A DNA stretch of 51,939 nt. It comes from Oscillospiraceae bacterium (GTDB lineage Bacteria > Bacillota > Clostridia > Oscillospirales > Oscillospiraceae). The DNA lies in the NCBI GenBank assembly GCA_017561205.1, contig JAFZDL010000041.1:1-51939 (forward strand). Reading direction: 5' to 3'. Shown here in pieces: positions 19,462 to 28,049 of this stretch (the first letter of the stretch is position 1; each line of letters begins with the position of its first letter). A program made the translations under genes and the position numbers. Under the pieces are notes generated by a model. It was given only the letters and a program-made list of their open reading frames with translations, did no database searches and was not told where the DNA came from.

Positions 19462-20859
19462 ATGTCAGAAAGCAAGGCGCTGCGCTCCGGAGTTGGTTAC
19501 ACCCTTGGTAACATTCTTATCAAGGGCATCAATTTCCTGACGCTGCCCATTTTCAGCCGACTCCTCTCCCCGGAGGAGTTTGGTGTTTATAATGTATTTG
19601 CGTCCTACGATATGATACTGTTCGTGCTCATTGGCCTGGCCCTGCACACCAGTATCCAAAGCGCAAATTTGGAGTTCCGGGGCAAAATCAACAGCTACAC
19701 CTCCTCCATCAGTCTGATTTATATTCTCAACGGACTGGTGGCCCTTGTTGTGGCTATTTTGTTCCGCCATGCGCTGGGACAGGTTCTATCCCTGCCCCCC
19801 GCATCCCTTACCATGCTGGTGCTGGGCAGCTTTTCCACGGCAGTGATCCAGCTATACAACACCCGCATCAGCCTGGACTATTCCTATAAAAAATATCTGC
19901 TGGTTTCCGCCTGCAGTTCCATATTGAATATCACCCTTTCTTTGGCGCTGATTCTAACGGCATTTTCCGAAAACCGGGCTATGGGCCGGATCATCGGCGC
20001 ATCTGTGCCGGCATTCCTCATTTCTGTAGTGCTGCTGCTTTCCTTCTTCCGGAAGGAAAAGCCCCGTTTTTCCAAGACCTATTGGAAGTTCGGCATCAAA
20101 TACAGCCTGCCCATCGTGCCCCACGGCATTTCCCAAATGCTGCTGAATCAATGCGATCGGATTATGATCAGCAAAATGGTCAGCGATGCTGCCGCCGGTA
20201 TTTACAGCCTGGCCGGCAATATCAAGCTGATTTTGGTGATCATCACCGAGTCCGTCACCACCGCCTGGACCACCTGGTTCTATTCCCAAATGGACAAGGG
20301 CGAAAAGATCGCCATTCAAAAGCGGGCAACCCAACTGCTTTTGCTGTTCTTCGCCCTGACCACGGGCCTTATGGCACTGTCGCCGGAGCTGGTGCAGCTG
20401 CTGGGCGGTGCCCAGTACACCCAGGGCAAATATGTGGCAATTCCTCTGGTGCTGGATGCCTTTGCGCTGTTCCTTTATAATTTGGTCGTCCCCGCCCAGT
20501 ACTATGCAAAAAAGACCACCTACATCATGTACGGCACTATGGCCGCCGCTGTGGTAAACATCGTTCTGAACTATGTGTTTATCAAGCTTTATGGCTTTGT
20601 GGCTGCGGCATACACCACCTTGGCATCTTATTTGCTGTTTGCGGCGGTGCATTATTTCATCTCCGGAAAGCTATTAAAGTTCTTCGTTGTGCCCCCCAGC
20701 CGGATGCTGGGTGTCTGCGCCGCTGTGGCTGCGATGGCCGCCTGGCAACTGCTGTTTGTTGACAGTATCCTGCTGCGCTGGGGCGTATGCGCTGTGACTG
20801 TCATTCCCGCGGCTCTTTATTTGCTGCGCCAAATGCGCAAAGACAAGGTTGCCGCATAA
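19462..20859 (+). CDS. Polysaccharide flippase (Wzx-like, MATE/MurJ superfamily)
   Basis: 465 residues with about 12-14 hydrophobic segments. The N-terminus GVGYTLGNILIKGINFLTLP and LLSPEEFGVYN are typical of Polysacc_synt/Wzx exporters, as is KFGIKYSLPIVPHGIS near the middle. It would flip undecaprenyl-linked repeat units to the outside for the Wzy polymerase at 14443. It is the last gene of the locus and is followed by a terminator. No Wzz-type chain-length regulator or tyrosine kinase is visible in the window. Confidence 0.9.
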   Translation: MSESKALRSGVGYTLGNILIKGINFLTLPIFSRLLSPEEFGVYNVFASYDMILFVLIGLALHTSIQSANLEFRGKINSYTSSISLIYILNGLVALVVAILFRHALGQVLSLPPASLTMLVLGSFSTAVIQLYNTRISLDYSYKKYLLVSACSSILNITLSLALILTAFSENRAMGRIIGASVPAFLISVVLLLSFFRKEKPRFSKTYWKFGIKYSLPIVPHGISQMLLNQCDRIMISKMVSDAAAGIYSLAGNIKLILVIITESVTTAWTTWFYSQMDKGEKIAIQKRATQLLLLFFALTTGLMALSPELVQLLGGAQYTQGKYVAIPLVLDAFALFLYNLVVPAQYYAKKTTYIMYGTMAAAVVNIVLNYVFIKLYGFVAAAYTTLASYLLFAAVHYFISGKLLKFFVVPPSRMLGVCAAVAAMAAWQLLFVDSILLRWGVCAVTVIPAALYLLRQMRKDKVAA

Positions 20860-20909
20860 GGCCGCCCCAAATATACAAATTTCCAAAAATTTTATACATT
20901 TTATACATC

Positions 20910-20938
20910 GAAAAGCAGGGCTGATAACCCTGCTTTTC
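20910..20938 (+). terminator. Terminator of the polysaccharide locus
   Basis: GAAAAGCAGGG pairs with CCCTGCTTTTC over a seven-base loop; the run of T lies inside the 3' arm. It is 51 bases after the flippase stop. Confidence 0.8.
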
Positions 20939-21035
20939 TGCGTATGTGATAGAAAAACACCCTATTTTTGTGCATTATAAACAAAGCGCACTTGGTATTT
21001 TCGGCAACTTTTGGAATGTAAATAGTGAATATAGG

Positions 21036-21053
21036 CTTGCATATTTATTCAAG
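21036..21053 (+). promoter_or_regulatory. ARG box (ArgR/AhrC operator) over the argG -35
   Basis: The core TGCATATTTATTCA (21038-21051) fits the TGNATWWWWATNCA ARG box core at all fixed positions. It covers the -35 TTGCAT (21037-21042), so arginine-bound ArgR would block RNA polymerase. Only one box is evident by eye. Confidence 0.72.
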
Positions 21054-21065
21054 CTGTGATACAAT
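21037..21065 (+). promoter_or_regulatory. argG promoter
   Basis: -35 TTGCAT (21037-21042), 17-base spacer, -10 TACAAT (21060-21065), 57 bases before the argG ATG. Confidence 0.78.
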
Positions 21066-21121
21066 CTTGCCATAACATAAATTACACGGGCTATTCCCGC
21101 GGATACTAGGAGGAAACAAAC

Positions 21122-22351
21122 ATGGATAAGAAAGACATCAAGAAGATTGTTTTGGCCTACTCCGGCGGCCTGGACACTTCCATCATTATTCCTTGGCTGA
21201 AGGAAAACTACAACGATCCTTACATCATCGCCGTGGCCGGTAATGTTGGCCAGGCCGACGAGCTGGAAGGCCTGGAAGAGAAGGCTTACAAGACCGGCGC
21301 GCACAAGTTCTACGCTGCTGACCTGAGCGAGGCTATGGTCGACGAGATCATCATTCCCTCCATGCAGGCTGGCTGTATCTACGAAGAGTATCTGATGGGT
21401 ACTGCTTTCGCCCGCCCCATCATTGCCAAGGCCCTGGTGGAGATCGCCAAGGCTGAGGGCGCTGACGCTATCTGCCACGGCTGCACCGGTAAGGGCAACG
21501 ACCAGGTTCGTTTCGAGCTGGCCATCAAGCGCTTCGCACCCGATATGAAGATCATCGCTCCCTGGCGTGAGTGGGATATCAAGTCCCGTGAAGAAGAGAT
21601 CGACTACGCCGAGGCTCACAACGTGCCTCTGAAGATCAACCGTGAGACCAACTACTCTAAGGACAAGAACCTGTGGCACCTGAGCCACGAGGGCCTGGAC
21701 CTGGAAGATCCCTGGAACGAGCCTCAGTACGAGAAGCCCGGCTTCCTGGAGATGACCATCTCCCCCATGCTGGCTCCCGACGAACCCACCTATGTAACCA
21801 TCGACTTTGAAAAGGGCGTTCCCGTTGCTCTGGACGGCAAGAAGATGACCGCTACCGAGATGATCTGGGCACTGAACGAGATCGGCGGCAAGAACGGCAT
21901 CGGTCTTTTGGACATCGTGGAGAACCGTCTGGTCGGTATGAAGTGCAGAGGCGTCTACGAGACTCCCGGCGGCACCATCTTGTACAAGGCTCACAGAGTT
22001 CTGGAGACCATTTGTCTTGACAAGATGACCGCTCACAAGAAGCAGGAGCTGAGCGTTTGCTTTGCTGAGCTTCTCTACAACGGTCAGTGGTACACCCCCC
22101 TGCGTGAGGCTCTGTCCGCTTTCGTGACCGAGACCCAAAAGACTGTTACCGGCACTGTCCGGCTGAAGCTGTACAAGGGTAATATGATCAACGCAGGCGT
22201 GAAGAGTCCCTTCTCCCTGTACTCCGAGGACATCTGCACCTTCGGTGAGAGTGACTACGATCAGTCCAACGCCACCGGCTTCATTAACCTGTGGGGCCTG
22301 CCCACCCAGACTCAGGCTCTCATGGAACAGGGTAAGCTGAACAATGGCTAA
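21122..22351 (+). CDS. argG: Argininosuccinate synthase
   Basis: 409 residues; joins citrulline and aspartate using ATP in arginine synthesis. The ATP-pyrophosphatase P-loop is AYSGGLDTS (residues 12-20). Also visible are [41 protein letters not shown] and the C-terminal [12 protein letters not shown]. Length is standard. AGGAGG precedes the ATG. Codon choice is strongly biased, as for highly expressed genes. It overlaps argH by eight bases. Confidence 0.97.
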
Positions 22352-23717
22352 GATGTGGGAAGGCCGGTTCAGCAAGGCGCTGGACCAACAGGCCGACGAT
22401 TTTAACTCATCCATTCACTTTGACTGCCGGATGTTCCGGCAGGATATCAAGGGCTCTATGGCCCACGCGGCAATGCTTGCCGCCCAGGGTATCATTCCCG
22501 CCGCCGATGTGGACATCATCATCGCGGAGCTTTCCAAGATCTTGGCAGACTTGGAAAGCGGCAAGCTGGCCATTGATATGACCGCGGAAGATATCCATAT
22601 GTTTGTAGAGGCGGAGCTCACCAAACGCATTGGCGACATTGGCAAAAAGCTCCACACCGCCCGCAGCCGCAACGACCAGGTTGCCCTGGACATCAGGCTG
22701 TACTTAAAAGAAGAGGCAGCCGGCATTGTGGCAATGCTGAAGGGTCTGCTGGAGGACATTCTCTTCCAGGCCCAGCAGCATAAAAACACCATTATGCCCG
22801 GTTACACCCACCTGCAAAGAGCCCAGCCCATTACCTTTGCCCACCATCTGTTGGCTTACGCAATGATGTTCTCCCGGGACATAGGGCGTATTGAAGATGC
22901 GGTGAAGCGAATGAACTATTCGCCCTTGGGCTCTTGTGCGCTGGCTGGTACTACCTATCCCACCAACCGGGAAATGGTAGCCCAAAAGCTGGGCTTCGAC
23001 GGCATTACCCTCAACAGCATCGACGGCGTGTCCGACCGTGACTTCTGCGTGGAGCTGCTGAGCGCCTTTGCCACGGTGATGATGCACTTGTCCCGTTTCT
23101 CCGAGGAGGTTATCCTCTGGGCAAGCTGGGAATTCAAGTTCATCGAGCTGGATGACAGCTACACCACCGGATCGAGCATTATGCCCCAGAAGAAGAACCC
23201 TGATATCGCCGAATTGGTGCGAGGCAAAACGGGCCGCGTCTACGGCGATCTCATGGGAATGCTCACAGTACTGAAGGGCCTGCCCCTGGCATATAACAAG
23301 GATATGCAGGAGGATAAGGAGTCTATCTTTGACGCCATCGACACCGTCAAGCAGTGCTTAACCGTATTCCCGCCCATGATCCGCACCATGAAGGCACTGC
23401 CCGAGAATATGCTCCGGGCCGCACAGAAGGGCTTCATCAACGCCACCGACTTGGCTGATTACCTCACCAAGAAGGGCGAACCCTTCCGCAGCGCATACAA
23501 GGCCACCGGTCAGATCGTGGCCTACTGTATTGCAAATAACAAGGTACTGGAAGAAATGACCATCGCAGAATACAAAGCATTCGACACCCAGTTTGAAAAC
23601 GATGTTTTTGAAGCCATCGACCTGCGACGATGTGTGGAAAGCAGAATCTCCGCCGGCGGCACCAACCAGGCTTCCGCCGACGAACAAATAAAGTACATTC
23701 AAGCTTATGTAAAGTAA
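22344..23717 (+). CDS. argH: Argininosuccinate lyase
   Basis: 457 residues; splits argininosuccinate to arginine and fumarate. The fumarase/aspartase-superfamily signature is [12 protein letters not shown], with [13 protein letters not shown] and [20 protein letters not shown] upstream. The start lies within the last codons of argG, so translation is probably coupled. A palindromic repeat follows before the transporter genes. Confidence 0.97.
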
Positions 23718-23724
23718 AAAATTC

Positions 23725-23824
23725 TGTCATTCTGAGCGAAGGGCTTTAGCCCGTAGTCGAAGAATCTACGCATTATTGATAGTGCCAAGATCCTTCGTGT
23801 CGCTGACGCTCCCTCAGGATGACA
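23725..23824. repeat. Palindromic intergenic element, CGAAGGATC subfamily, copy 3
   Basis: Ends TGTCATTCTGAGCG and CCTCAGGATGACA; inner GTCGAAGAATCT and AGATCCTTCG arms. It lies between argH and the binding-protein gene, within what looks like one transcription unit. Confidence 0.88.
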
Positions 23825-23864
23825 AGGTTTTTAATTAACAAACAATTTTAGGAGGAAAACCAAA

Positions 23865-24680
23865 ATGAAAAAGTTTATTGCATTGACCCTGGCACTGGTA
23901 CTGTGCCTGTCCCTGTTCGCAGCTTGCGGCGCTAAGGAAGAAGCCGGCGCTAAGATCGTCGCCCAGAAGGGTACTACCAGCTTTATGTATGCTGAAAAGC
24001 TGGCCAACACCAAGACCACCACCTACGACACCTTCGCACTGGCTGCAAAGGATATGATCAACGGCAACGCTGATTATCTGTTCGTCGACAAGACCACCGC
24101 TAAGTCCCTGGCTAAGGAAATCGAGGGTCTGAAGATCATCGAGATCGCTCTGTCCAGCGAGAACTACGGCATCGGCATCGACAAGAATCAGGCTGACCTG
24201 AAGACCAAGATCGACGATATTCTGAAGAACAAGGCCGCTGAGATCGACGCTATCAAGGAAAAGTACATGAACGGCGAAGAGGATAAGTATGTTGGCGTGA
24301 CCTCCGGCACCAAGGACGGCAGCAAGGCAGATAAGCAGCTGGTTGTTGCTACCAACGCTGAGTTCGCTCCCTGGGAGTACAAGGAAGGCAATCAGTTCTA
24401 CGGCATCGACATGGAGATCGCTAAGCTGTTCGCTGACGAGCTGGGTATGGAGCTGGTTATCGACGATATGGAGTTCGACGCTGTTGTAGGCGCTGTTGGC
24501 AAGCAGAATGTTGACATCGCTATGTCCGGTATCACCATCACCACCGAGCGTCTGGGCGTTATCAACTTCTCCGAGCCCTACTACACCGAGTCCATCGTCT
24601 GCGTTGTTCCCGCTGCCAACACCGAGCTGGATTCTGCCGGCACTGTTGTTGATATGCTGAACGTCATCTGCGCAAAGTAA
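23865..24680 (+). CDS. Amino-acid ABC transporter binding lipoprotein with circularly permuted lobes
   Basis: 271 residues with a lipoprotein signal (MKKFIALTLALVLCLSLFAAC, Cys21). In ordinary SBP_bac_3 proteins lobe 1 comes first and lobe 2 follows. Here the order is reversed. Residues 29-142 are lobe-2 sequence (KIVAQKGTTSFMY, ADYLFVDKTTA, NYGIGIDKN, then a C-terminal-type helix AEIDAIKEKYM). After a linker (143-157), residues 158-243 are lobe 1 (LVVATNAEFAPWEY, FYGIDMEIAKLFADEL, SGITITTERLGVINFSEPYY). The tail then ends where the normal inter-lobe crossover would meet the present N-terminus. Alpha-amino-acid contacts appear kept: Arg229, Thr37/Thr38, Asp75. AGGAGG precedes the ATG. Ligand is probably arginine or another basic amino acid, from operon context. 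Confidence 0.85.
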   Translation: MKKFIALTLALVLCLSLFAACGAKEEAGAKIVAQKGTTSFMYAEKLANTKTTTYDTFALAAKDMINGNADYLFVDKTTAKSLAKEIEGLKIIEIALSSENYGIGIDKNQADLKTKIDDILKNKAAEIDAIKEKYMNGEEDKYVGVTSGTKDGSKADKQLVVATNAEFAPWEYKEGNQFYGIDMEIAKLFADELGMELVIDDMEFDAVVGAVGKQNVDIAMSGITITTERLGVINFSEPYYTESIVCVVPAANTELDSAGTVVDMLNVICAK

Positions 24681-24704
24681 TTTAAGTAAATCAGAAAAGG
24701 TAAG

Positions 24705-24736
24705 GTGAAGGCTTAGTCGAAGCGCTAAGCCTTCAC
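24705..24736 (+). terminator. Intra-operon hairpin (partial terminator or mRNA stabiliser)
   Basis: GTGAAGGCTTAG pairs perfectly with CTAAGCCTTCAC over an eight-base loop and is followed only by TTTGG. Between a binding-protein gene and its permease this is likely to keep the binding protein more abundant than the membrane parts. Confidence 0.6.
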
Positions 24737-24749
24737 TTTGGTTAAAAAT

Positions 24750-25454
24750 ATGACTATAACTCAAATGTGGAATGAATTTATCAAGCAGTTCATCACCCTA
24801 AAGGGATATGAAAATGTGGTGAACGGCTTGTGGATTACCGTGCAGATCGCCGTTTTCGGCTTGCTGATCGGTATCCTCATCGGTACCCTCATCGCTGTGG
24901 TGCGGGTAATGCCCAAGTATAAGAGGCTCCCCAGAATCCTGGACAAGATCTGCGTATGCTATATCGAACTCTTCCGGGGCACACCTATGGTGGTGCAGCT
25001 GCTGATTGGCTACTGGGTGCTGCTGCCCGCATTGGGTATCACCGTTGACTCCGGTGTTCCGGTGGCAATCGTGGTGTTCGGTCTGAACAGCGGCGCTTAT
25101 GTCAGCGAAATTATGCGTGGCGGTATCCAATCCGTGGACCCCGGCCAGATGGAAGCCGGTCGGGCCCTGGGTTTGACCTATGCCACCACCATGCTGAAAA
25201 TTGTTGTGCCCCAGGCCATCAAGAACATCCTGCCCACCCTGGGCAACGAGTTCATCGTGCTGATCAAGGAAACCTCCATCGTCAGCTTTATCGCGGTGAC
25301 CGACCTTTACAAATCCTTCAAGCAGCTGGGTGATCCCACCTACGATTACACCATGCCCTATCTGATGCTGGCACTGACCTACTTGGTTATGGTGCTGCTG
25401 ATTTCCTGGGGTGTCAGAGTGCTGGAAGCAAAAATGAAGAAGAGTGAAAGATAA
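24750..25454 (+). CDS. Polar amino-acid ABC transporter permease (HisM/GlnP family)
   Basis: 234 residues from the ATG at 24750 (an in-frame TTG at 24738 is possible). About five membrane segments. The inner-membrane coupling loop is the EAA motif: [22 protein letters not shown], with [13 protein letters not shown] earlier, both hallmarks of the HEQRO subfamily. No clear Shine-Dalgarno is seen before either start; the hairpin at 24705-24736 occupies that space. It works with the binding protein upstream and the ATPase downstream; the ATPase start is one base past this stop. Confidence 0.93.
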
Positions 25455-25455
25455 T

Positions 25456-26235
25456 ATGGAAAAACAGTTACTATTGTCAGTTAGAAATCTGACCAAGAAA
25501 TTCGGCGACATACAAGTCCTCAAGGGCATCGATTTGGATGTTTACGAGGGTGATGTGGTGGCTATCATCGGGCCTTCCGGCTGCGGCAAGTCCACATTCC
25601 TGCGTTGCGTCAACTGCCTGGAAGATCCCTCCGGCGGCTCTATTATGTTCGACGGCGAGGACCTGGCAGATATGAAGGTGGACATCAATATCCACCGGCA
25701 AAAGATTGGTATGGTGTTCCAGCAGTTTAACCTGTTCAATAACCTGTGCGTGCTGGACAACATCACCCTTGCGCCTGTTACCATCGCCAAGAAGAATAAA
25801 AAGGCCTTGCGGGCCCAAGGCAAGACTGTTGCCGATGTAAAAGCGGAGGCCGAAAAGCGGGCTATGGAGCTGCTGAAGGCCATCGGCCTTGAGGACAAGG
25901 CTGCCGCCTATCCTTCTCAGATCTCCGGTGGTCAGAAGCAGCGTGTGGCCATCGTCCGGGCATTAGCTATGAATCCCAAGGTCATTCTCTTTGACGAGCC
26001 TACCTCCGCCCTGGACCCGGAAATGGTCGGCGAAGTGCTGGATGTTATGAAGGCTCTGGCAAAGCAGGGTATGACCATGGTTGTGGTCACCCACGAAATG
26101 GGCTTTGCCCGCGAGGTCTCCAACCGGGTGATCTTCATTGACGAAGGCGTCATTGCCGAGAAAAACACCCCCACTGAGTTCTTTGGCAACCCCCAAAGCG
26201 AGCGTCTGAAATCCTTCCTGGCTAAGGTATTATAA
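25456..26235 (+). CDS. Polar amino-acid ABC transporter ATPase (GlnQ/HisP family)
   Basis: 259 residues. Walker [10 protein letters not shown] (residues 37-45), Q-loop FQQFNLF, signature SGGQKQR, Walker [15 protein letters not shown] and H-loop [10 protein letters not shown]. About 20 residues more than the common form are inserted after the Q-loop region ([25 protein letters not shown]); this type of insert is seen in some clostridial members. I prefer ATG at 25456 over GTG at 25444. Very likely energises uptake of arginine or a related amino acid, as it is followed directly by argF. Confidence 0.94.
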
Positions 26236-26247
26236 GGAGATTTGAAG

Positions 26248-27225
26248 ATGAAAGGCAGAAATTTTCTGAAGCTGCTGGACTACACCCCGGCAGAAATTAT
26301 GCACCTGATCGATTTGGCTGCTGACCTGAAAGCCAAGAAAAAGGCCGGCATTCCCCACAAAATGTGCGAGGGCAAGAATATCGTTCTCCTGTTTGAAAAG
26401 GACTCCACCCGTACACGCTGCGCCTTTGAGGTTGCCGGTGCGGACTTGGGTATGTCCGTGACCTATTTAGGACCTTCCGGCTCTCAGATGGGCAAGAAGG
26501 AATCCATCGCCGACACCGCCCGGGTGCTGGGCCGTATGTACGACGGTATTGAGTACCGGGGCTACGGCCAGGAGATCGTGGAGGAGCTGGCAAAGCACGC
26601 AGGCGTGCCCGTTTGGAACGGCCTGACCAACGAGTTCCACCCCACTCAGATTTTGGCGGATATGCTCACCATCCGGGAGCGTTTTGGCTACTTGAAAGGC
26701 ATCAATTTTGTGTATATGGGTGATGCCCGGTACAATATGGGTAACTCCCTGATGGTTGGCTGCGCCAAGCTGGGTCTCAATTTCACCGCCTGCTGCCCCG
26801 AAAAGTATTTCCCCAGCAAGGAACTGATTGCCACCTGCCAAGCCATTGCCGAGGAAACCGGCGCGATTTTGCGTTTTGAGACCGATTCCGCCATCGCCGC
26901 GAAGGATGCCGATGTGATCTACACCGATGTTTGGGTGTCTATGGGCGAGCCTGCCGAGGTTTGGGCAGAGCGGATCGAAGAACTTTCCCCCTACCGGGTG
27001 ACCCAGGAGCTGATGGACATTGCAGGTCCTCAGTGCAAATTTATGCACTGCCTGCCCGCTTTCCACGACCTGAACACCAAGATCGGCAAGGAAATGGGTG
27101 AGCAGTTCGGCATCGACTGCATGGAAGTCACCGACGAGGTGTTTGAAGGCCCGCAGTCCATTGTCTTCGACGAGGCTGAGAACCGGATGCACACCATCAA
27201 GGCCGTTATGGCTGCAACATTGTAA
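26248..27225 (+). CDS. argF: Ornithine carbamoyltransferase
   Basis: 325 residues; makes citrulline from ornithine and carbamoyl phosphate. Carbamoyl-phosphate site [13 protein letters not shown], then FHPTQILAD, and the ornithine-specific MHCLPAFHD; these distinguish it from aspartate carbamoyltransferase. GGAG is eight bases before the ATG at 26248. It closes the argG-argH-transporter-argF unit. A strong bidirectional terminator follows. Confidence 0.96.
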
Positions 27226-27226
27226 T

Positions 27227-27258
27227 AAAAAAGGGAACGGCTTGGCCGTTCCTTTTTT
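27227..27258. terminator. Bidirectional terminator between argF and spoVT
   Basis: A-run, GGAACGGC, short loop, GCCGTTCC, T-run. It can serve both converging genes; the spoVT stop overlaps its right edge. Confidence 0.9.
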
Positions 27259-27799
27259 AGCTTTCCATCTGCTTGCCTAAGAAGCCGGCAATGGTCTGGG
27301 TGATCTTCTGATCAGCCTCGGTGACCGGAGCGCTGTCTTCTCCCATCAGCAGCATCACACAGCCCATGAGGTCTCCCTGGCTGAGAATGGGTGATGCCGC
27401 CCCCAGAGAGTACTTGTCCGTGTTGTCCGTGGGACGAACCACAGGCTCGCCGGGGTTGTAGCGGTAGTGGGTGCGCTGCTCCATCAGCTTTTCCAGCTCC
27501 TGAGAGTTGGGCTTATCCATGAGCTCCCGCTTGGGTGCGCCGGACAAAGCGATGATGCTGTCCCGGTCCGCCACAGCGGCAATGCGCCCGGTGCTGTCAC
27601 CGATGGACTCGCAGATCTGTGTGGCAAAATCCTGCAGATCGCTCATAGGGGAATACTTCCGGAAGATCACACCCCCGTCCTTTTCGGTGTAAATCTCAAG
27701 GGGATCACCCTCACGGATGCGAAGGGTTCTTCTGATTTCTTTGGGAATCACAATACGCCCTAAATCGTCCACTCTTCTGACAATGCCAGTTGCTTTCAT
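27257..27799 (-). CDS. spoVT: Stage V sporulation protein T (AbrB-type transcription regulator)
   Basis: 180 residues, normal SpoVT length. The N-terminal swapped-hairpin AbrB DNA-binding domain (residues 1-50) has GIVRRVDDLGRIVIPKEIRR. The remainder is a GAF-like domain (about 55-178) as in Bacillus SpoVT, a late forespore regulator. Its presence supports a sporulating ancestry. AAAGGAG lies upstream of the ATG at 27799. The 5' region contains a palindromic repeat and shares promoter-like sequence with a decayed duplicate at 28372-28578. Confidence 0.93.
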   Translation of the reverse strand: MKATGIVRRVDDLGRIVIPKEIRRTLRIREGDPLEIYTEKDGGVIFRKYSPMSDLQDFATQICESIGDSTGRIAAVADRDSIIALSGAPKRELMDKPNSQELEKLMEQRTHYRYNPGEPVVRPTDNTDKYSLGAASPILSQGDLMGCVMLLMGEDSAPVTEADQKITQTIAGFLGKQMES

Positions 27800-27846
27800 A
27801 TATCTTTCTCCTTTTACGATACTTTACGGCACCACCGCACCTCGTT

Positions 27847-27938
27847 GTCATTGCGAGGAGCGTAGCGACGTGGCAATCTCAAGTGAGCAGTTGGTTTTGG
27901 AGATTGCCACACCAGTGTGCGCACTGGTTCGCAATGAC
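27847..27938. repeat. Palindromic intergenic element, GCAATCTC subfamily, copy 2
   Basis: Ends GTCATTGCGAG and TTCGCAATGAC; inner GTGGCAATCTC and GAGATTGCCAC. It lies in the 5' leader of spoVT. Confidence 0.88.
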
Positions 27939-27965
27939 AGTGGTAGTCGATACCTGCCTACAATA

Positions 27966-27997
27966 ATTTTACAAATTACGCTGTTAGTATCTGTAAA
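27966..27997 (-). promoter_or_regulatory. Candidate spoVT promoter
   Basis: On the minus strand TTTACA, a 20-base spacer and TAAAAT. The spacing is long for a vegetative promoter. The same block is kept upstream of the decayed duplicate, with TTGACA and an 18-base spacer. Confidence 0.4.
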
Positions 27998-28020
27998 CTC
28001 ACGGAGATTATACCGCAAGA

Positions 28021-28049
28021 TTTACTTTTTCAAATCGCTGTGATATGAT
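28021..28049 (+). promoter_or_regulatory. Candidate promoter of the small protein gene
   Basis: TTTACT, 17-base spacer, TATGAT at 28044-28049, 22 bases before the ATG at 28071. Confidence 0.5.

Follow-up and report, generated by a model that had tools for sequence, protein, structure and literature searches.

The gene at positions 23,865–24,680 on the plus strand of the window, as we call the whole 51,939-nt stretch of DNA that was analyzed, raises the question of whether an amino-acid-binding lipoprotein of the SBP_bac_3 family can occur naturally with its two lobes in exchanged order. The first-pass annotation of the locus had proposed that a lipoprotein signal is followed by lobe 2, a linker and lobe 1, that the two breakpoints complement each other, that the ligand contacts are kept, and that the termini have been moved to the hinge.

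The ORF starts with an ATG, encodes 271 aa and is preceded by a Shine-Dalgarno sequence, AGGAGG, that can be read directly from the DNA (23,850–23,855, plus strand). Its product begins with the lipoprotein signal peptide MKKFIALTLALVLCLSLFAAC (23,865–23,927), whose lipobox Cys21 was invariant in the 23 rows of alignment A1. Lobe 2 follows (residues 30–135; 23,952–24,269), running from KIVAQKGTT through Asp75 and NYGIGIDKN to the C-terminal helix. The linker (residues 136–157; 24,270–24,335), which fills the gap between the two lobe HMM matches, leads from the former C-terminus to what was once the mature N-terminus and into lobe 1 (residues 158–248; 24,336–24,608), which carries Arg229. Both lobes were delimited by PDB alignment and lobe HMMs. 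The C-terminal tail (residues 249–271; 24,609–24,677) corresponds in alignment A1 to the former inter-lobe connector. All these segments lie on the plus strand.

Compared with the PDB by phmmer, residues 154–248 matched residues 6–101 of 4prs, that is, lobe 1 (i-Evalue 2.5e-15), and residues 27–135 matched residues 116–225, that is, lobe 2 (i-Evalue 3e-08). The lobe order was therefore inverted relative to 4prs. The Pfam SBP_bac_3 profile (PF00497) agreed with this, its positions 1–95 of 132 falling on residues 159–253 with 89 bits against a curated cut-off of 26.4; no collinear end-to-end match was obtained, lobe 2 coming before the matched part, while the canonical protein L085 matched positions 1–131 in one stretch. 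The lobe HMMs detected exactly one lobe 2 and one lobe 1, so that the first half is not an extra domain accompanied by a second lobe 2 in the same protein. Arg229, Asp75 and Thr38 were retained, as had been claimed; for the Arg and the Asp we assume the ligand roles that they have in SBP_bac_3 proteins. In alignment A1 the break falls about 15 residues past what we take to be the hinge strand, within lobe 2; the proposal that the termini had moved to the hinge thus held for the circular permutation itself but not for the exact place. Together with the ORF and the doubled-profile matches described below, the PDB and Pfam results confirmed, at the level of sequence, that the 271-aa lipoprotein is an SBP_bac_3 amino-acid-binding protein ordered lobe 2, linker, lobe 1.

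The protein scored 98.4 bits, in two stretches, with the NCBIfam Lys/Arg/Orn SBP model TIGR01096, below its cut-off of 256.35. Three canonical relatives likewise stayed below it (147.5, 155.1 and 159.6 bits, one stretch each), so the miss is not due to permutation alone, and we have dropped permutation as the cause of missed NCBIfam cut-offs.

In what follows, type 21 denotes the order lobe 2–lobe 1, type 212 the order lobe 2b–lobe 1–lobe 2a, and “2C” a third break inside lobe 2. A profile built from 65 canonical proteins, with 223 positions per period, was doubled and compared with each class. The window protein aligned in a single stretch (positions 109–325) covering 217 of the 223 positions of one period. 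Its score rose on doubling from 126.6 to 177.4 bits, and this gain of 51 was below that of the median type-21 row. The median of type-21 proteins rose from 144.8 to 274.5 bits, with 54/59 gaining more than 20 bits (five did not), and that of type-212 proteins from 177.8 to 214.9 bits, with 61/62 gaining more than 20. Canonical proteins went from a median of 328.0 to 327.6 bits and 0/65 gained more than 20, these being the same 65 from which the profile was built. The median aligned span was 221 positions for type 21 and 226 for type 212, about one period in both, as expected from circular permutation. Seven permuted rows (six type 21, one type 212) spanned fewer than 190 positions; they include L191–L193, from three of the ten phylum-sample genomes described below, whose lobe 2–lobe 1 order was read from the separate lobe HMMs only.

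Profiles of 23 lobe-2-first proteins (A1) and of type 212 (A2) matched 106 distinct and 90 PDB sequences, respectively, and no solved permuted member was found among the best 60 of either set. Within these best 60, only 6h30 had a best stretch that crossed the lobe 2–lobe 1 junction of A1 or reached the first part of A2. This entry, which we take to be Lactococcus GlnPQ with each SBD canonical, is a tandem of two SBP domains and matches across the junction only through that tandem arrangement.

The genus sample comprised 101 genomes, the window's own included. Five others (G060, G065, G051, G014 and G072) carried full-length copies at 88–95% identity, with the same lobe order and preceding the same permease and ATPase genes. 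The same order was found at 67% identity in L065, at 45% in G021 and in swapped members of two Ruminococcus bromii strains. The contigs named in the window's clade (L060–L065) all bear isolate names of one series (RGIG), but from different animals. The dN/dS of the mature part was 0.162, 0.169, 0.138, 0.169 and 0.202 for the window gene against L003, L005, L006, L007 (four of the five genus copies, L004 being left out) and L065. Lobe 1 alone against L003 gave 0.871 on very few changes (dS 0.016).

These data bear on two ways in which the unusual order could be spurious. A misjoining of two SBP gene pieces during assembly or binning, the concern raised at first pass, would fit a fragmented genome (114 contigs, 83% complete), but the recurrence of the order in the genus copies, in the more distant G021 and L065 and in R. 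bromii makes such an artefact extremely unlikely. The gene could also be what is left of a tandem SBP-SBP gene, two half genes having fused into a sequence that no longer functions and is decaying. Arrays of this kind do exist in the family, canonical in GlnPQ (6h30) and swapped, as (21)n proteins, in L110, L183 and L096. Against this stand the purifying selection on the mature part, the retained ligand residues, the open frame and the adjoining permease gene, as well as the rarity of a canonical SBP beside a permuted one (1/132 permuted-SBP loci, L109, in loci of 2 to 13 kb with many short flanks), and we regard a tandem remnant as highly improbable. The best reading of these sequences, and one that they support, is that a gene under selection was circularly permuted in nature.

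The gene lies within an ordered cluster on the plus strand, argG-argH-SBP-permease-ATPase-OTC, that was repeated in L060, L062, L063 and L064. Upstream are the genes for argininosuccinate synthase (argG, 21,122–22,351) and argininosuccinate lyase (argH, 22,344–23,717). Downstream are an ABC permease gene (24,738–25,454 as listed from a TTG, with the ATG at 24,750 as its likely start; PF00528, 2.9e-28), an ABC ATPase gene of GlnQ/HisP type (25,444–26,235; PF00005, 2.3e-36) and the ornithine carbamoyltransferase (OTC) gene (26,242–27,225). The SBP gene has the adjoining permease and ATPase genes expected for the binding protein of an ABC importer. Apart from that of the window protein, SBP_bac_3 matches in its genome numbered two, a full-length match on C40 and a further match on C110. 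A terminator-like scan picked up a 12-bp inverted repeat on the minus strand (24,705–24,736) that separates the SBP gene from the permease gene, a common site for a hairpin in SBP operons; the region held eight terminator-like sites versus 4.0 in shuffles. The arrangement of the cluster suggests arginine, ornithine or citrulline as the substrate, a suggestion to which we give about an even chance. Next to the SBP gene of L065 (67% identity), no argG, argH or OTC gene was found, although permease and ATPase genes were present, and the link to arginine is therefore not general.

No known RNA was found by Rfam in positions 20,800–28,000. A short ORF at 27,717–28,043 contains CHCEERSDVAISS...RNDSG, a peptide that we take to be typical of a repeated intergenic element rather than of a gene. 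The intergenic segment 23,791–23,823 (GACGCTCCCTCAGGATGAC) looks, to us, similar in kind, and a second copy of it was absent from the 51,939-nt window with up to three mismatches allowed.

The window type is one of several arrangements. The first 111 loci, which were picked by similarity to a permuted query and are thus biased and include near-copies, comprised 51 canonical, 31 type-21 and 27 type-212 proteins, two tandem arrays and one lobe 1 alone. After wider sampling, the distinct lobe pairs numbered 64 canonical, 41 type 21, 15 tailed type 21, 62 type 212 and three “2C.” The tailed proteins have a window-like C-terminal tail of 11–59 residues, and 11/15 belong to the window's own lineage; two type-21 proteins fused to a permease, from two strains of Ruminococcus bromii (L070 and L071), were kept apart from them, and L194, truncated by a contig end, was left out when the break types were defined. 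In “2C” proteins (L181:1390-2211, L184:585-1547 and L190:2035-2898), the first beta-alpha unit of lobe 2 is at the C-terminus and the rest of the lobe at the start. On the 223-position profile, the breaks fall at about 100, 102/109 (window), 130 and 170. Judged from the predicted lobe orders, several permutations exist: some, like that of the window protein, break near the hinge, and others at either of two sites within lobe 2. The position of Arg229 was kept throughout the permuted rows of the four break groups (41/41, 15/15, 62/62 and 3/3), and that of Asp75 in all but one (41/41, 14/15, 62/62 and 3/3). A permease gene was fused or lay at most 400 nt away for 64/67 type-21, 64/67 type-212 and 62/67 canonical ORFs, near-copies included.

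Tandem arrays also occur in the swapped phase, with lobe 2 first and lobe 1 last: (21)3 in L110:5023-8052, (21)2 in L183:385-2721 and (21)4 in L096:4309-7809. In L110 (Nitrosomonas communis) and L183, the permease follows in the same ORF. On the minus strand of L195, a type-212 ORF (L195:1988-2854) and a type-21 ORF (L195:2901-3770) are adjacent before one permease; the two proteins share 47% identity in lobe 1 and 31% in lobe 2.

The linker measured 17–35 residues in type 21 (median 21, n = 60) and 17–25 in type 212 (median 18, n = 62). The median spacing between the lipid Cys and the residue at which the core begins was 17.5 residues for canonical proteins (n = 60), 19.5 for hinge type 21 (n = 36), 8 for tailed type 21 (n = 14) and, with the start estimated from the profile end, about 1 for type 212 (n = 59); rows that did not match the lipobox pattern (five canonical, three type 212 and eight type 21) were left out. 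By these distances, the lipid would be attached to different faces, often tightly.

A search for swapped-order proteins across the order, as suggested at first pass, was carried out with a profile of lobe 2b–linker–lobe 1 (A3), a series that runs without interruption only in the permuted types and in tandem arrays. ORFs of fewer than 560 aa that span this profile were present in at least 67/394 genomes of the order, at least 45/291 of the class and at least 10/299 of the phylum; the three samples overlap, and the distinct genomes number at least 116, the window's own included. All loci fetched proved to be permuted (30/30 in the order sample, 30/30 in the class sample and 10/10 spanning genomes of the phylum), and for the remaining spanning genomes the assignment was made from profile coverage together with ORF length. 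These counts do not include hits that were partial or long (G674, G1059, G954:C3, G1164 and G1406). Two seemingly spanning hits with stop codons, in G563 and G853, turned out on inspection to be canonical genes (L197 and L198) and were not counted either. Among the matches listed for 249 Pseudomonadota genomes, where A3 is less sensitive, having been made from Bacillota sequences with the window's family among them, no spanning single-SBP ORF was found and only the Nitrosomonas array spanned the profile. The matches listed there outside that array start at position 41 or later of 163, and we have rejected the idea that the profile produces spanning hits as an artefact.

We have addressed how often the order changed with an SBP tree, in which both lobes were put in one order, and with a permease tree, which is independent of SBP order; both were quick trees with SH-aLRT support only. 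The SBP tree had 99 rows, thinned from 185 at more than 78% identity within an order, with five long-branch or divergent rows left out (four canonical ones and permuted L058). The window's clade contained 21 rows, 6 lobe-2-first and 15 type 212 (support 100), and 13 changes were needed over the whole tree. AU tests were run on groups defined by architecture, after the trees had been seen. A single clade was rejected at p 0.000258 for the permuted rows taken together, at p 1.8e-5 for the lobe-2-first rows and at p 0.00578 for type 212. The permease tree mixed the lobe orders as well and needed 20 changes over all groups; the window's transporter clade had 41 rows (support 100), 9 lobe-2-first and 32 type 212, and no canonical SBP was found in it among the fetched loci. 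The Ruminococcus clade held rows of both kinds, canonical and permuted, intermixed. Permuted L068 and canonical L085 were 80.6% identical in DNA over lobe 1 and 80.2% over lobe 2. From these comparisons, the family appears to have been permuted repeatedly, at three or more break sites.

Two further readings concern how the present proteins came about. One is that halves of different SBPs were fused, rather than a single gene being permuted. The lobes do differ in rate, the nearest rows outside the close clade being at about 60% in lobe 1 against 42% in lobe 2, and the 16 lobe-2 neighbours include one canonical protein from a different clade. Beyond the window's own close clade, however, all 16 best listed lobe-1 neighbours and 15/16 of those of lobe 2 fall in the same transporter clade of the permease tree, so that both halves would belong to one SBP lineage; the lobes of L068 are, moreover, equally close to L085 in DNA. 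We consider a chimera decidedly improbable. The other is that permutations were few and the canonical order was often restored afterwards. In the SBP tree, some canonical rows of Ruminococcus fall within the lobe-2-first clade, and a reversion is possible there; yet the differing break positions call for more than one rearrangement in any case, and one clade was rejected for all permuted rows together, making this account unlikely in place of repeated permutation. With repeated permutation as the preferred reading, we think it likely that the amino-acid SBPs of Clostridia are a permutation-prone family, cut and rejoined repeatedly at about four positions (at the hinge, just past it, midway through lobe 2 and behind the first beta-alpha unit of that lobe). 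Reversions and tandem arrays in the swapped phase may be part of this, and the anchor would be shifted to another face each time.

For the window protein itself, we hold it highly probable that an ordinary two-lobe SBP was permuted and that the product would serve as the binding protein of a polar amino-acid ABC importer. As the sequence shows, the linker of about 20 residues joins the former C-terminus to the original N-terminus of the mature protein, and the new termini open just beyond the first hinge crossover, inside lobe 2. The chain would be expected to adopt a normal type II Venus-flytrap fold with its ligand contacts, the lipid tether would sit on lobe 2 near the hinge instead of on lobe 1, and, judging by the operon, the substrate would be passed to the permease and ATPase encoded directly downstream. 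The permutation may have originated when the mature domain was duplicated in frame and fused after the original signal peptide, the outer halves being lost later, a route that we find about as probable as not. Between permuted L068 and canonical L088, 20/26 signal-peptide residues are the same, and the rearrangement therefore seems to have been confined to the mature part. Adjacent SBP genes (L195 and L196) and tandem arrays are compatible with duplication, fusion and trimming, and in SBD1-SBD2-permease proteins of the GlnPQ type (6h30) lobe 2 runs into the next lobe 1, as it would in a duplication intermediate. A duplicated canonical intermediate was not found among the loci examined.

GlnH, HisJ, ArgT and ArtJ, type II amino-acid-binding proteins of SBP_bac_3 (cluster F, as we take the name to be), resemble the window protein in their lobes, ligand Arg and Asp, lipoprotein anchor, and permease and ATPase partners. 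They differ in that the window protein runs lobe 2–lobe 1, with its termini just past the hinge and its lipid anchor on lobe 2. The first-pass annotation knew of no natural example of such a permutation in this family. For SBP_bac_3, none was found in the titles and abstracts of the literature searched, a scope that left most subscription papers and all bioRxiv preprints outside; among SBPs at large, a natural case is known. Tp0684 (TpMglB-2) of Treponema pallidum is reported as a naturally permuted type I SBP, for which the name “Type Ic / Cluster Bc” was proposed; it undergoes a conformational change and has glucose as a ligand, an adaptation to anchoring is raised by the authors, and relatives are reported in Gram-positive gut bacteria (PMC4990184). 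Tp0684 is, like the window protein, a naturally circularly permuted, lipid-anchored ABC binding protein, but it has a type I sugar-binding fold with the first three N-lobe strands at the C-terminus and a fourth crossover (PMC4990184). The window protein belongs to a type II amino-acid family in which whole lobes or parts of lobe 2 have moved, at several break sites. The window protein shares the circular permutation with Type Ic but, by sequence, has its best matches in SBP_bac_3 and not in a type I sugar-binding fold.

Circular permutation within a protein family is commonly viewed as an old, rare event. Here, a well-studied fold has seemingly been permuted repeatedly, and in part recently (L068/L085, about 80% DNA identity), in gut bacteria that include Ruminococcus bromii. 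A search that expects a single collinear match will cover no more than half of such a protein in any one stretch. The steps that yield a permutation, the choice of cut site, the position of the anchor in relation to delivery to the permease, and the tolerance of new termini become questions that can be put to the test. If true, a permutation-prone family would be a natural experiment on tethering geometry in ABC import.
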